From: Mesorhizobium sp. 65-26
GTDB lineage: Bacteria > Pseudomonadota > Alphaproteobacteria > Rhizobiales > Rhizobiaceae
Assembly (NCBI GenBank): GCA_001899205.1
Contig: MKVL01000010.1
Span: forward strand, 329,914-393,913
Length of the DNA: 64,000 nucleotides
Direction: 5' to 3'
Position numbers and translations under genes: made by a program. Within the stretch, counting starts at the first letter, position 1, and each line of letters begins with the position of its first letter. Positions 28,456 through 33,693 of this stretch are shown here, piece by piece. A model generated the notes under the pieces. The model searched no databases. It was given only the letters and a program-made list of their open reading frames with translations, and was not told the DNA's origin.

Positions 28456-30042
28456 TCACCCACCCAGCTCCAGCCGGCGCGAAATGCCGATGGCCTCGAG
28501 GAAGGTCTCGTCGTGGCTGACCACGAGCAGGGCGCCGTCATAGGCGAAGAGCCCGGCTTCCACCGCCTCGATGGATTCGATGTCGAGGTGATTGGTCGGC
28601 TCGTCGAGGATCAGCAGGGATGGCGGCCTCGGCCCGCCCAGCACGCAGGCCAGCCCGGCGCGCAGCAACTGTCCGCCGCTCAGGCTGGAAACCTGTTGCA
28701 GCGCTGCGTCGGCGCGAAACATGAAGCGGGCAAGCGCTGCGCGACAGGCATTGGCGTCGGCATCGGGGTTGATGCGCCGGAAATTGTCGAGGATGGACGC
28801 CGATGCATCGAGCAGGCTGACCGCCTGGTCGAACATGGCGAAGTCCGGCACCACGCGCATGCTGCCGGCCAGGGGCCGCAATTGTCCCGCGACGAGCTTG
28901 AGCAGGGTCGTCTTGCCCGACCCGTTGGGGCCTGTGACGGCGACGCGTTCCGGCCCGGTAATAGTGAAGGACAGCTCGCGCAGGACCGGGCGGTCCGGCG
29001 CGTGGCCAGCGCTTACCGCGTCCAGGCCCAGCACCGCGCGACCGGCGGGCAGGCCGGTCGCGGCCAACCTGACCGAGAATGGGTGCAGCACCTCGATACG
29101 CTGACGCGCCGTAGTCGCGGCATCCAGCGCCTGAGCGTGGCGGCGCTCGGCGAGCCGGGCGGCCTCGCCGCCGCTATCCTGGCTGCGGTCCTTGCGCGCG
29201 CCGGCCAGGATGCGCGGCATGTCGCCTTTCGCGCGCTTGCGCTGGCCGGCGCCGTCCTTGCGCGCCTTGCGCTCGGCCGTCTCCTGCGTCTTGCGTTCGA
29301 TGTCGGCCACGCGCTGCTCGGCATCGGCGAGATCGCGCCGCGCGGCCGCCAGCTCGATCGCCTTGCGCTCGCGATAGCGGCTCCAGTTGCCGCCATAGCG
29401 GTTCGCGCCGAGCGCGGTGAGCTCGACCACGGCATCGACGGTTTCGAGCAGTTCCCTATCGTGGCTGACGACGATTGCCGCGCCGCGCCATTCGGCGAGC
29501 ATGCGGATCACCGCCTCGCGGCCCTCGCGGTCGAGATTGTTTGTCGGCTCGTCCAACAGCAGCACGTCGGGTTCGGCAAACAGCAGCGCGGCAAGGCGCG
29601 CCCGCGTGGCCTGGCCACCCGACAGGTTCGCCAGCGGCGTTTCCAGCGGCACCTCCAATCCGGTATTGCCGGTGGCGGAGGCGATGCGGGCCTCCAGCGT
29701 CCAGTCGGCGTCGGCGAGCTCCTCGAGGCTTGCCTCGCCGCGTTCGGCGCGCGCCAGCACGGCGAGCGCCTGGCGCGCGCCGAACAGGTCGATGACGGCC
29801 GTGTTCCGGGGTGGCGCCTGAACGGACTGGCTGAGCATGCCGACGCTGCCGGAAACCGAGACCGCGCCCGATTGCGGCATGCGCTGGCCGGCGATCAGGG
29901 CAAGCAGGGTCGACTTGCCGACGCCATTGCGACCGACGAGGCCGGTGCGCTCGGCGCCAAAGCTGAGGTTTACGTCGGAAAGAAGCGGGCGGCCGTCAGG
30001 CGTGGAAACGGTGAGGGCGGAAAGAACGATCGAAGCGGACAT
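28456..30042 (-). CDS. ABC-F family ATPase (duplicated nucleotide-binding domains)
   Basis: A 528-residue protein with two ABC domains and no membrane segment. Domain 1 has GRNGVGKST, LSGGQATRARLAALL and VLLLDEPTNNLDR; domain 2 has GPNGSGKTT, LSGGQLLRAGLACVL and LLILDEPTNHLDI. The linker (about 215-310) is charged and helical (AARRDLADAEQRVADIERKT), as in ABC-F proteins. ABC-F members act on the ribosome as translation factors or antibiotic-resistance proteins; no specific subfamily can be fixed here. The gene stands alone. Confidence 0.92.
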   Translation of the reverse strand: MSASIVLSALTVSTPDGRPLLSDVNLSFGAERTGLVGRNGVGKSTLLALIAGQRMPQSGAVSVSGSVGMLSQSVQAPPRNTAVIDLFGARQALAVLARAERGEASLEELADADWTLEARIASATGNTGLEVPLETPLANLSGGQATRARLAALLFAEPDVLLLDEPTNNLDREGREAVIRMLAEWRGAAIVVSHDRELLETVDAVVELTALGANRYGGNWSRYRERKAIELAAARRDLADAEQRVADIERKTQETAERKARKDGAGQRKRAKGDMPRILAGARKDRSQDSGGEAARLAERRHAQALDAATTARQRIEVLHPFSVRLAATGLPAGRAVLGLDAVSAGHAPDRPVLRELSFTITGPERVAVTGPNGSGKTTLLKLVAGQLRPLAGSMRVVPDFAMFDQAVSLLDASASILDNFRRINPDADANACRAALARFMFRADAALQQVSSLSGGQLLRAGLACVLGGPRPPSLLILDEPTNHLDIESIEAVEAGLFAYDGALLVVSHDETFLEAIGISRRLELGG

Positions 30043-30244
30043 AGACTAGAATTCCCCTGGAGGCAAAGCGGGTGAGCTGTGCTTGCGGGGTAAAATCCAT
30101 GACGGCTGGGATCCTCTTCTAAACTGCCGGAGCCGCCCGAATGGCGGTCCGGACGGTTGAACGTCCGACCGGTCACCTAGTGGCTGATGGCGTCGAAATC
30201 AAGGGCGCGATCCTGCAGCACGATCGCCTTGCGGCGTCGGCGCG

Positions 30245-30616
30245 TCAGTCGCGGTAGACATCCACGTCGATGAAGTCGCTGTGGACCTCGACGCGGATCA
30301 TCGGCGTTCCGTCGAGGATGGCTCGGCGCGCCGAGGGTGTGACCGAACCGCGCTCCAGCATACGCTCCAGGCGGGCACGGTTGCCCTTGTCGGCGAAGAA
30401 GGAGTCTTCCTCGTCTTCCGGATCGCCCTTGCCATAGACGTAAAGATTGGCCCGGTCCTGCCGGATGATCGCGGCAATGCTGGTCAGGCGCTCGCCATTG
30501 GAGTTGAAATGGTCGGCGGCGCTGAGCCGGGCGACATAGGTCTCGAGCGGCCGCGCCACGGCGAGGGAAGCGGAGGCGGCCAGAAACAGGCCGGTGAACA
30601 GGACGAGTTTCTTCAT
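30245..30616 (-). CDS. small secreted protein of unknown function
   Basis: The 123-residue product has a signal peptide MKKLVLFTGLFLAASASLAV cleaved near VARPL. The mature part is charged and contains GKGDPEDEEDSFFADKGNRA; it ends in the Asp-rich DFIDVDVYRD. No family is recognised. It lies about 90 bp from the first palindromic repeat of the GIY-YIG locus. Confidence 0.72.
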   Translation of the reverse strand: MKKLVLFTGLFLAASASLAVARPLETYVARLSAADHFNSNGERLTSIAAIIRQDRANLYVYGKGDPEDEEDSFFADKGNRARLERMLERGSVTPSARRAILDGTPMIRVEVHSDFIDVDVYRD

Positions 30617-30706
30617 GATCCCCTCAATGTGGCCGATGTCGGCGGCTCACGATAGCCGCCCGCTCTAGCCGCTCTAGCTGCTCGAACGGCCGATGTCACC
30701 GGCATT

Positions 30707-30770
30707 CGTCATCCCAGGGCGAAGCAAGGAGCGAAGCGACGCGGCGGAGACCCTGGGATCCATGCCGTGA
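30707..30770 (+). repeat. palindromic repeat, left flank of GIY-YIG gene
   Basis: A 64-bp unit from CGTCATCCC to CCATGCCGTGA. ATCCCAGGG (30711-30719) pairs perfectly with CCCTGGGAT (30751-30759) around a 31-base loop that contains GAAGCAAGGAGCGAAGCGAC. Its inner end (CCATGCCGTGA) faces the GIY-YIG gene. It is nearly identical, in inverted orientation, to 31153-31216, with a compensating change in the stem. Confidence 0.9.
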
Positions 30771-30835
30771 GATCGGCCGTATGGTGCAAGCGGAGCAGAA
30801 TAGTCACCAGCCGCAACGCCGACTAAGGTCGCCCC

Positions 30836-31123
30836 ATGACCGGCTATGTCCACATGACCGCAAGCCAGAAAGGCGGCACGATCTATATCGGCGTCACCAA
30901 TGACCTCGCTCGTCGCATGCCTGAGCACAAGAGTGGGGAAGGTTCGCGCTTCACCAGCCGCTATGGCGTGCAGCGCCTCGTCTGGTACGAGGAGTATTTC
31001 GACATTGCCGATGCCATCCAGCGCGAGAAGTCTCTGAAGCGCTGGCCGCGACAATGGAAGGTCGAACTCATCGAGAAGACCAATCCGGAATGGTTCGAGC
31101 TCTTTCGCGGAACGGGATGGTGA
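30836..31123 (+). CDS. GIY-YIG family nuclease
   Basis: A 95-residue single-domain protein. The GIY strand is degenerate (GYVHM, residues 3-7), followed by TIYIGVTNDLARRMPEHKSG with the YIG motif and the catalytic Arg. The catalytic Glu lies in REKSLKRW and the Asn in EKTNPEWFEL, so the nuclease site looks complete. It is of the UPF0213/YhbQ-like size. The start has AAGG about eight bases upstream. The gene sits between two inverted palindromic repeats, 65 bp before its start and 29 bp after its stop, which suggests a functional or mobile unit (inference). Confidence 0.93.
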   Translation: MTGYVHMTASQKGGTIYIGVTNDLARRMPEHKSGEGSRFTSRYGVQRLVWYEEYFDIADAIQREKSLKRWPRQWKVELIEKTNPEWFELFRGTGW

Positions 31124-31152
31124 GTGTTCTGGACTGTCGCGGCGCTCTTGCG

Positions 31153-31216
31153 TCACGGCATGGATCCTAGGGTCTGCGCCGCGTCGCTCCGCTCCTTGCT
31201 TCGCCCTAGGATGACG
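31153..31216 (-). repeat. palindromic repeat, right flank of GIY-YIG gene (inverted)
   Basis: A 64-bp inverted copy of the element at 30707-30770. ATCCTAGGG (31164-31172) pairs perfectly with CCCTAGGAT (31204-31212), and the loop is again 31 bases. Relative to the left copy a C-G stem pair has become T-A, so pairing has been kept. Its TCACGGCAT end faces the gene. Confidence 0.9.
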
Positions 31217-31332
31217 AAGAAGGGGGACGTGCTTCGTCGGCGCAATGCGTAGCGATGGGACGACGCTTCGCCGTCGCGCGGCCTCTGTACTGGCGCGCCA
31301 CGCTATTGCCGTCGTGGCCACGCCCCTCCCAT

Positions 31333-31370
31333 CGTCATCCTCGGGCTTGACCCGAGGATCCATGCCGTGA
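31333..31370 (+). repeat. short palindromic repeat variant
   Basis: It has the same outer ends as the longer units (CGTCATCC and GGATCCATGCCGTGA), but the stem ATCCTCGGG/CCCGAGGAT (31337-31345 and 31351-31359) closes a loop of only five bases, CTTGA. It has the same orientation as the left copy of the GIY-YIG locus. This short form is known to be widespread in alphaproteobacterial intergenic DNA. Confidence 0.85.
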
Positions 31371-31423
31371 CGATCGTCATGGGCGCGGCTACGCAGAATT
31401 CCGCACGGCTGCGGCGCTGATAC

Positions 31424-31487
31424 GCCACGGCCTGGATTCCAGGGTCTGCTCGCGTCGCTTCGCTCCTTGCTCCGCCCTAGGATGATG
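31424..31487 (-). repeat. degenerate palindromic repeat, inverted orientation
   Basis: A fourth copy, inverted: ATTCCAGGG (31436-31444) and CCCTAGGAT (31475-31483) pair with one wobble and one mismatch around a 30-base loop with the same CGTCGCTTCGCTCCTTGC core. With 31333-31370 it forms an inverted pair enclosing about 50 bp and no gene. The gene-free stretch 31124-31510 is filled mainly by these repeats; I see nothing else in it. Confidence 0.8.
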
Positions 31488-31510
31488 AAGGGGGCAGGCC
31501 GCGCCCTGCC

Positions 31511-33427
31511 TCAGCCCTTCGCCAGGCCGCGTTCGATGAGGCGGGCGAGGCGGGCCGAGAAGGCCCTGGCGTCGGCCGGTTTGTCGCCGTCCAGCACCCG
31601 GGCCTCGTCGTAGAGGAGGTGGGCCGCGTCCTCCTTGAAGGTCCTGTCGTCGTCGCCGAGCCTCGCCAGCGCGGCGACGCGCTCGTGGCGCGGGTTGATC
31701 TCCAGGATCGGCCTGGCGGCCTTGTCGAGCCGGCCGGCGGCGTTGAGCAGGCGCTCGAACTGGCGGTCGGGACCATGCTCGGGCGCGACCAGGCAGACGG
31801 CGCTGGTCGTCAGCCTATCCGACGCCTTCACATCGGACACCTCGTCGCCGAGCGTCGATTTGACGAAGGCAAGGAAGGCGCCCACTTCCGGCGTGGCCTC
31901 GGCCGGCTTCGCAGCATCCTCGGGCAGGGGGACATCCGAGAGCTCGGCCGCGCCCTGCGTGACCGACTTAAGCGGCTTGCCGTCGAATTCAGGCGCCATC
32001 GTCACCCAGAAGGAGTCCACTGGATCGGTGAGCAACAGCACCTCGATGCCGCGCGCCCGGAAGCCTTCGAGCTGCGGCGAGGCTTCGAGCCGCGCGCGGT
32101 CGTCGCCGGCCATGAAGAAGATCGCCTTCTGGCCCTCCTTCATCGCGCCGACATAGTCGGCAAGGCTGCGCGAAGCCTCGCCCGACGTCGTCGAGCGGAA
32201 GCGCGAGAGCTTCAGCAACTGTTCGCGCCGCTCGTAATCCTCGTAGAGGCCCTCCTTGAGGACGACGCCGAAATTCTCCCAGATCCTGGCATAGGCCTCG
32301 GCATCGTTGTCGGCCAGCTTGGCGAGGTCGCCCAGGACGCGGTTGGTCACGCCCTTGCGGATCGAGGCGAGCAGGGGGCTTTCCTGGATCATCTCGCGCG
32401 AGACGTTGAGCGGCAGGTCGGCGGAATCGACAAGGCCGCGCACGAAGCGCAGGTAGCGCGGCAGGATGTCTGCGTCGTCGGTGATGAAGACGCGGCGCAC
32501 ATAGAGCTTCATGCGCCCCTGGCGGTCCTGGTCGAACAGGTCGAAGGGCCGGGAGCCCGGCACGAAGGCAAGCACGCTGTATTCCTGGCGGCCCTCGGCG
32601 CGAAAATGGATCGTCACGGCCGGCTCGTCATACTGGCCGGCGATGCCGCGATAGAAATCGGTGTATTCCTCGGGCTTGATCTCGCTCTTCTGGCGCACCC
32701 AGAGCGCGGTGCCGTCGGCGATGTCGCGCGGCTCCGCGCCGGGCTTCTCGACCAGGGTGATCGGCACCGGCACATGACCCGATTGCGACGTCACCAGTCC
32801 TTCCAGCCGGTAGGGCGTGGTGTAGGACGAGGCGTCCTCCATGAGGTGCAGGATGACGCGGGTGCCGCGCGCGGGCGCGGCGTCGAGCGGCGCGGGCGCG
32901 ATCTCGTAGGTACCCTTGCCGTCGGATGACCAGCGCCAGGCGTCGGTGCCGCCGGCCTGGCGGCTGATCACGTCGACGCGGTCGGCAACCATGAAGGCCG
33001 AATAGAAGCCGACGCCGAACTGGCCGATGAGCTGGCTGTCCTCCGTTGCCTTTCCTGCTTCCAATCGCTCCATGAAGGCGCGGGTGCCGGAACGGGCGAT
33101 CGTGCCCAGCGCCTCGGCCATCTCGTCGCGGCTCATGCCGATGCCGTTGTCCTCGACGACGAGCTGGCGGTTGTCCGGGTCGGCCGAAATCGTGATGCGC
33201 GGTTTAGGATCGTCGCCGAGCAGTTCGGGTCGGCCGATCGCCTCGAAGCGCAGTTTCTCGCAGGCGTCGGCCGCGTTGGAGATCAGCTCGCGCAGGAAGA
33301 CGTCCTTGTCGGAATAGACCGAGTGCACCATCATGTGCAGCAGGCGGGCCACATCCGCCTCGAATGCCCTGGTCTCCCGGTTGTTGGTTTCCCTGGCGCC
33401 GGTTTCCGTCGCTGTCGTATCCGTCAT
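31511..33427 (-). CDS. htpG: molecular chaperone HtpG (Hsp90)
   Basis: A 638-residue protein with the GHKL ATP-binding domain: LRELISNAADACEKLRFEAI, DNGIGMSRDEMAEALGTIAR and GQFGVGFYSAFMVADRV. The Hsp90 middle domain follows (LYVRRVFITDDADILPRYLR, LPLNVSREMIQES), then a C-terminal dimerisation region. Length matches bacterial HtpG. The ATG at 33425-33427 has GGGAA upstream; the longer frame to 33682 is rejected. It is a cytosolic ATP-dependent chaperone. It is divergent from the peptide-type importer, with which it has no obvious link. Confidence 0.97.
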   Translation of the reverse strand: MTDTTATETGARETNNRETRAFEADVARLLHMMVHSVYSDKDVFLRELISNAADACEKLRFEAIGRPELLGDDPKPRITISADPDNRQLVVEDNGIGMSRDEMAEALGTIARSGTRAFMERLEAGKATEDSQLIGQFGVGFYSAFMVADRVDVISRQAGGTDAWRWSSDGKGTYEIAPAPLDAAPARGTRVILHLMEDASSYTTPYRLEGLVTSQSGHVPVPITLVEKPGAEPRDIADGTALWVRQKSEIKPEEYTDFYRGIAGQYDEPAVTIHFRAEGRQEYSVLAFVPGSRPFDLFDQDRQGRMKLYVRRVFITDDADILPRYLRFVRGLVDSADLPLNVSREMIQESPLLASIRKGVTNRVLGDLAKLADNDAEAYARIWENFGVVLKEGLYEDYERREQLLKLSRFRSTTSGEASRSLADYVGAMKEGQKAIFFMAGDDRARLEASPQLEGFRARGIEVLLLTDPVDSFWVTMAPEFDGKPLKSVTQGAAELSDVPLPEDAAKPAEATPEVGAFLAFVKSTLGDEVSDVKASDRLTTSAVCLVAPEHGPDRQFERLLNAAGRLDKAARPILEINPRHERVAALARLGDDDRTFKEDAAHLLYDEARVLDGDKPADARAFSARLARLIERGLAKG

Positions 33428-33617
33428 TTCAAATTCCCAGATCGTCACTTTTGCCCGGCGAAGGCCGGTGCGTCCGGGCGACAGTATCGTGATGAGCCAC
33501 GAAGACAACAAGGGCCGGCGAGGCCTGAAGTCGCGGTCGGCGAGGCAAGGCCGGCGGGCCCGGCGCGGCGGCCGGCAGGGCTTGCCGGCGCCGTTCGGGA
33601 TAATGTCTTCGCCCACC

Positions 33618-33636
33618 TTGACACACGGTATACCGT
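33618..33636 (+). promoter_or_regulatory. TTGACA box overlapping a GntR-type palindrome
   Basis: TTGACA at 33618-33623 is followed at once by the perfect 12-bp palindrome ACGGTATACCGT at 33625-33636. GGTATACC-type palindromes are typical operators of GntR/FadR-class regulators, and this placement would let a repressor block RNA polymerase. It lies 58 bp before the binding-protein start codon. No GntR gene is present in the window. Confidence 0.6.
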
Positions 33637-33693
33637 ATGCGCAAATCGACCGGTAACGATCGGTTTTCGCCAAGCGCGCCAAAGGGAGACAAG

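Follow-up and report, generated by a model that had tools for sequence, protein, structure and literature searches.

The window analysed here, a 64,000-nucleotide stretch of DNA from Mesorhizobium sp. 65-26, contains a putative autonomous mobile element of 515 bp (30705–31219, plus strand, the extent being that of the homology between the window and another Mesorhizobium locus, L063) in which a small nuclease gene lies between two palindromic repeats of the REP type. The left repeat (30707–30762, plus strand) has an outward CGTC head, a 9-bp stem, a 31-nt loop and a CCA tail on the side of the gene, and is followed by a left inner arm (30763–30835, plus strand) that begins with TGCCGTGA; this arm belongs to a stretch, degenerate and found only in Mesorhizobium, by which the inverted repeat extends inward. 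The gene itself (30836–31123, plus strand) encodes a 95-residue protein that matches the GIY-YIG family (PF01541, E 4.2e-15) and is separated by a right inner arm ending in CACGGCA (31124–31160, plus strand) from the right repeat (31161–31216, minus strand), which is inverted and again turns its CCA tail toward the gene. An earlier, sequence-only reading of the same DNA had described two 64-bp palindromic units bracketing the gene with their ends inward, an arrangement borne out by the inverted arms 30705–30770 and 31153–31218, which are 66 nt long and 94% complementary. To the right of the unit, the second inverted pair of that reading is indeed present and has no gene (31333–31487, unstranded); it is composed of a short repeat (31333–31362, plus strand), an interior, and a decayed long repeat (31432–31487, minus strand) with a CATC head where the others have CGTC. 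Its segment 31399–31449 is 76% identical to 31127–31177, which covers the 3' interior of the gene unit and the start of the right repeat, and the pair is, by this resemblance, probably a miniature derivative of the unit. Downstream of the nuclease gene, at 31511–33682, lies htpG (HSP90), as it does in Rhizobium tumorigenes (L351, 4009–5267), possibly by coincidence.

The stems of the left and right repeats (ATCCCAGGG/CCCTGGGAT and ATCCTAGGG/CCCTAGGAT, respectively) differ by one compensatory change, C-G to T-A, and both loops measure 31 nt, as had been pointed out earlier. The accompanying claim that pairing is under selection can be kept for the family, from which 30 distinct paired stems were obtained (in repeats chosen by a detector that requires pairing, GTCAT and ATCCA), but the two long-loop repeats of the window, folded as single DNA strands, do no better than shuffled sequences (z +0.60 and +0.77). 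The right repeat of the gene-less pair likewise folds no better than shuffles (z +1.15, single DNA strand), and the short repeat 31333–31362 folds better (z −3.66). A search of the window's own genome (6.84 Mb in 42 contigs) with the left repeat gave 31 matches at E ≤ 0.001, many of them arranged as inverted pairs without a gene, and the window repeats are therefore not a product of chance. An Rfam scan of 30000–32200 returned no match at E ≤ 1.

Because their anatomy (CGTC, a 9-bp stem beginning with A-T pairs, a loop and CCA) and their occurrence in pairs agree with those of the CGTC REPs, the window repeats are, as judged from sequence, members of this already published superfamily. A CGTC or TGTC head, AT in the first two stem positions and a CCA tail are found in three of the four window repeats, the fourth being the one with CATC; the stem of 8–9 bp with a loop of 4–5 nt is found in the short repeat, whose loop has 5 nt, and the two gene-unit repeats combine a 9-bp stem with longer loops, of 31 nt. 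In the passages of the 2013 survey by Di Nocera et al. that deal with CGTC REPs (PMC3733652), they are reported from five phyla and all orders of alphaproteobacteria, where, as for the relatives found here, most of them occur; they include the Neisseria dRS3 repeat, equated with CGTC-1, and two Rickettsia RPE repeats, and some families deviate in loop length. The same passages state that the superfamily "apparently lack[s] a dedicated transposase", regard its few associations with other transposase classes as fortuitous and leave its mode of spread open; relative to them, the link to a GIY-YIG gene, the unit and its derivatives are new.

The structure predicted for the protein (pLDDT 91) has as its nearest solved folds in Foldseek the uncharacterized UPF0213 proteins, followed at weak E-values (0.03 and above) by the GIY-YIG domains of Slx1 and UvrC. 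The UPF0213 proteins (PDB 1zg2, 1ywl), which are also the nearest solved sequences, are single-domain GIY-YIG proteins of similar size. In Slx1 and UvrC, enzymes of branched or damaged DNA, the domain is part of larger repair proteins that are not known to be mobile. Tyr17 of the YIG motif, Arg27, Glu64 and Asn83, all of which presumably have catalytic roles, are present in the window protein, and together with Gly19 and His31 they are invariant among 26 sequences of the subfamily. The earlier statement that the catalytic residues are present thus stands for these four and fails for the tyrosine of the GIY motif: residue 6 is Tyr in 142 and His in 3 of the 146 readable genes (out of 150), and the window copy has His (codon 30851–30853). 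The subfamily as a whole carries both the GIY and YIG tyrosines, the Arg, the Glu and the Asn of a GIY-YIG nuclease, and the window copy may be impaired or inactive through His6. Comparison of the window gene with 11 relatives of the Mesorhizobium type gave dN values of 0.039–0.094 and dS values of 0.61–1.51, from which it follows that the protein is under purifying selection; in a twelfth copy, L069, codon 92 is a stop. The closest protein relatives in named genomes are from Mesorhizobium (up to 94% identity), and the window's own genome has a single small GIY-YIG gene, plus a match inside a 707-aa frame that we read as UvrC. A search for the gene in phages gave one weak match, and public records name the subfamily 'GIY-YIG nuclease family protein', 'excinuclease ABC subunit C' or 'hypothetical protein'.

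The neighborhood of the gene was explored at 150 loci, which include the window itself and a few duplicate records (L047/L123, L136/L178). Thirty came from the order (L033–L062, the best matches, one per genome, from 115 matching genomes among 199), 80 from named genomes (out of at least 585 relatives; 17 of these loci, L063–L078 and L130, belong to Mesorhizobium or its close kin). The remaining 40 represent other orders of the phylum and were picked by hand, with a single gene per genome, from the strong matches listed. A strict detector (GTC, a 7-bp stem starting with AT, a loop of 2–45, AT-CCA, one stem mismatch permitted) detected a REP no more than 250 bp from the gene at 95 of the 150 loci (20/30, 56/80 and 19/40 in the three samples), and a relaxed one, which permits two changes in total (mostly ACCCA tails) and has a background of 0.07 per 500 bp, did so at 124. 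Small genes in REP-rich intergenic regions might produce such an association by chance or through sampling, as most REPs are intergenic and many are near gene ends according to the survey passages (PMC3733652). Several controls argue against this. The strict detector gave 71 matches in the 1,227,250 bp of the 80 named-genome loci, or 0.0145 expected per flank, and REPs were observed in the upstream flank at 49 and in the downstream flank at 44 of the 80 loci; control ORFs of the same loci had a REP on any side in 51 of 923 cases and on both sides in 4 of 923, compared with 56/80 and 37/80 for the gene. Twenty scrambled tag and tail settings found a REP at 0 or 1 of 80 loci, and 20 weaker GIY-YIG matches to the family profile, taken to belong to the UPF0213 class and in this respect different from the subfamily, were REP-flanked in no case. 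A chance neighborhood is thus rejected on the basis of the control ORFs, the scrambled tags and the weaker matches, and the gene is found with the repeats far more often than control ORFs are.

The orientation and sequence of the repeats point in the same direction and leave the explanation by chance or sampling with virtually no weight. The nearest upstream REP in the 80 loci points in the plus direction in 36 and in the minus direction in 13, and the nearest downstream REP points in the minus direction in 37 and in the plus direction in 7, so that the two usually face each other. Among 31 loci outside Mesorhizobium with a plus/minus pair, 68% have the same six variable stem bases at both ends, compared with 6.9% (maximum 25.8%) under 10,000 permutations; hence, the stems vary between loci, yet the two ends of one unit tend to match.

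No CGTC REP was recognizable at 26 of the 150 genes even with the relaxed detector; among these, inspection by eye revealed hairpins with AT as the first stem positions on both sides in five (L051, L060, L100, L183, L207) and similar hairpins, AT-first on one side, in L200 and L201. Eight of 33 matching records from a plasmid collection were examined and six had a relaxed REP within 250 bp; none was detected within that distance in Sphingobium (L347) or Planktothrix (L350). On plasmid AZO_p3 of Azospirillum lipoferum 4B (L346, 2354–2972), sufB and sufC enclose the gene, which has one plus/minus REP pair to its left and another to its right, and in a Neisseria gonorrhoeae record (L349, 600–2200) a relative with 48% identity lies between arrays of CGTCATTCCC-type repeats, 3 bp from a repeat of the CGTC type. 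Tandem REPs with near-constant spacing occur beside the gene in L048 (1855–3235, ~193 bp) and L054 (825–1381, ~176 bp).

In Mesorhizobium, the REP–gene–REP arrangement is a discrete unit of ~510 bp that occurs at different sites. Between the window and L063, the homology around the gene covers exactly 30705–31219 (84% identity), the immediate flanks are unrelated, and a stretch of L063 located 2.7 kb from the unit matches window DNA 24 kb away. Among 433 short alignments, which are mutually dependent and derive from 41 elements (from the genus Mesorhizobium and, in addition, from a single locus of Nitratireductor and two further genomes), the homology ends 2–10 bp outside CGTC in 316 cases on the left and 269 on the right, and many of the remaining ends fall inside the unit. 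One genome has two units that are 96% identical, with 743 bp of homology beyond which only repeat arms are shared in the 6.3 kb compared. Two hallmarks of a transposable element, terminal inverted repeats that bound a discrete unit and the presence of this unit at unrelated sites of related genomes, are accordingly both observed. At three intergenic sites, units are found in opposite orientations (L068/L070, L067/L075 and L315/L320), either because the DNA between the REP ends was inverted or because units inserted more than once at the same place.

Two sites allow orthologous flanks to be compared in number. At site A, 30 loci comprise one unit, identical to the query, one gene-less pair and 28 cases with no strict REP between the flanks. 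For site B, the flanks were searched in 146 genomes of the genus and 30 loci were taken, of which 27 had both flanks and 13 were short enough to align; these 13 contain a full unit in five cases, a 360-bp unit in one, a solo hairpin in four and no REP in three, and the other 14 have a longer sequence between the flanks with no strict REP in it. No clean pre-insertion site was apparent at sites A and B, where the bases around the unit vary and no target duplication was found, and no direct repeat was visible by eye in 29 flank pairs. An empty counterpart of the window unit was sought in 119 genomes of the genus, four of which had a substantial match to the flanking gene (72–74%), with no strict REP, no match to the nuclease gene and nothing that aligns beyond the flanking gene; as a source of an empty site, L064 and L072 were too diverged. 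At site B (L315–L326), the unit occupies the center of a larger palindrome, of the GGGGGAGATGTCGCC ... GGCGACATCTCCCCC type, which is intergenic in Mesorhizobium and exists also without the unit. A general palindrome formed by the outer flanks was considered and rejected: it stands out at L065 and site B but is not significant overall (−19.6 versus −18.1, sd 1.25, in Mesorhizobium and −13.7 versus −13.6 in the others).

The unit has several kinds of derivatives. The 360-bp unit at site B is inverted and has lost the middle of the gene, leaving a 40-aa remnant. The four solo hairpins of the same site (L321, L323, L324, L325) have CGTC-type ends on both sides, three in one form and one in the mirror form, and we read them as a left and a right REP joined at a shared stem arm; such hairpins would arise through deletion or slippage between the two copies of that arm. 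Mesorhizobium loci further yielded 25 distinct plus/minus pairs without a whole gene, the 360-bp unit included, and both of their inner arms resemble those of the gene units, above all 20 shuffles, in 20 of 24 (21 of 25 before the removal of L278, whose right arm matched itself). We read these pairs as miniature derivatives of the unit, the counterpart of REPINs. As a general feature of the system, the inner-arm extension was rejected, since it is confined to Mesorhizobium (13.0 versus 12.5 in shuffled sequences elsewhere).

These observations bear on the main rival explanation, a homing-like process in which the nuclease cuts gene-less REPs or solo CGTC...GACG palindromes and repair copies the unit into them via REP homology, so that the unit would be a homing gene that stands on its own and has REPs as its home, rather than their first spreader. 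GIY-YIG is a known fold of homing nucleases, and the profile of group I intron endonucleases (TIGR01453) does match the protein, far below its cut-off; solo palindromes at an orthologous site where relatives have the full unit, as well as the presence of either orientation at one site, are also compatible with such copying. Three of the 13 aligned orthologous sites contain no REP at all, however, so a REP was not always present beforehand, unless it has been lost, and the inner arms common to gene-less pairs and gene units fit deletion derivatives better than homing targets. On balance, we consider homing-like copying into existing REPs rather unlikely, and a unit that moves as a whole and leaves deletion derivatives behind the better account.

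The distribution of the repeats across genomes was assessed with a REP model, R1, in 160 of the 199 genomes of the order (with an E limit of 0.01 for one half of them and 1e-5 for the other, the top counts being at least 92), a genome being considered gene-bearing if a single-sequence search gave a strong match (E ≤ 1e-15). The median number of REPs is 28.5 in gene-bearing and 1 in other genomes (Mann-Whitney p 6e-10), and ten or more are present in 61 of 84 gene-bearing versus 21 of 76 gene-free genomes (38 of 54 versus 10 of 38 by genus); eight of the 84 gene-bearing genomes had no match to R1. The expectation that genomes without the gene lack the repeat is consequently correct in that REPs are rarer there and incorrect in that 21 of 76 keep at least ten. 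Neither of the two outcomes that the sequence-only reading had named as contrary to its proposal was encountered, namely that most homologues would lie far from the repeats or that genomes lacking the gene would have just as many of them. As several gene-free genomes (G076, G031, G021, G080, G055, G150) share a genus with gene-bearing ones, they have probably lost the gene recently, and REP numbers show no obvious drop with this likely loss.

It might be argued that the nuclease is a passenger or a domesticated enzyme, which resides among REPs that spread by other means and perhaps processes their hairpins as DNA or RNA. Such an interpretation could draw on the 21 gene-free genomes with ten or more REPs, in 18 of which the family profile found nothing (three had weak or partial matches), and on the survey passages in which GTAG REPs are held to be spread by RAYTs (PMC3733652). 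The Y1/RAYT transposase (PF01797), on the other hand, was found to be absent from 40 of 52 genomes chosen by hand (37 that have the gene and 14 that do not, all with at least 20 REP matches, plus G000, which is among the 40), and RAYTs therefore cannot be the general driver of CGTC REPs. Combined with the fortuitous nature of the links to other transposase classes in those passages and with the relocation of the gene together with its REPs as one unit, this makes a passenger role improbable, clearly more so than homing-like copying.

The likeness to the REPIN/RAYT (TnpAREP) system proposed at the outset, with a GIY-YIG enzyme in place of Y1, is supported, at the level of sequence comparison, by the proximity of gene and repeats, by the abundance of REPs in gene-bearing genomes and by the matching stems. 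In both systems (for RAYTs, PMC3733652 and general background), REPs flank a single small gene for a nuclease, pairs of REPs serve as non-autonomous units, and REPs are found also in genomes that lack the gene. They differ in the enzyme (GIY-YIG, PF01541, here and HUH/Y1 there), in the tag (CGTC and GTAG, respectively) and in that, here, the gene unit occupies different sites from one related genome to another. Thus, we think it likely that the window contains an autonomous, transposon-like unit of ~510 bp with inward-facing CGTC REP ends, the 95-aa GIY-YIG nuclease of which is the dedicated enzyme of the CGTC REPs and, as such, probably their missing partner.

Since CGTC, AT and CCA are constant and the stem sequence is free, recognition by shape plus tag is the mode that suggests itself: the nuclease would recognize the constant CGTC-AT...AT-CCA parts of a folded REP, in the form of a hairpin or a cruciform, and an Slx1-like fold would suit branched DNA of this kind. 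It would then nick or cut at or near CGTC at both ends, after which host replication or repair would copy or excise the unit; the enzyme might also act in trans on gene-less pairs and single REPs and so move them, in the way proposed for RAYTs and REPINs. The more general proposal extends to a new class of bacterial mobile elements, hairpin-ended units in which a single-domain GIY-YIG protein acts on folded CGTC REPs as a transposase, and which would have seeded these repeats in alphaproteobacteria, in Neisseria (dRS3) and in other groups, as a counterpart of the RAYT/REPIN system, which is HUH-based and unrelated; for this we see about an even chance.

No connection between GIY-YIG proteins and REPs was found among the literature matches listed, a set outside of which lie preprints (bioRxiv) and most subscription journals. 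The terms 'nuclease', 'transposase' and 'RAYT' did not come up in a term search of a 2025 REP survey (PMC12306157), nor did 'GIY' in one of a survey of HuH enzymes (PMC6006769). The system described here belongs to the REP-plus-nuclease kind, and proof that the nuclease drives transposition would make it a new class. With a specific enzyme candidate, the spread of CGTC REPs becomes a question for the bench, and an answer would assign a function to GIY-YIG proteins of a subfamily that now has only generic names in the records. Finally, the findings suggest that units composed of REPs and a nuclease arose twice, with unrelated enzymes.
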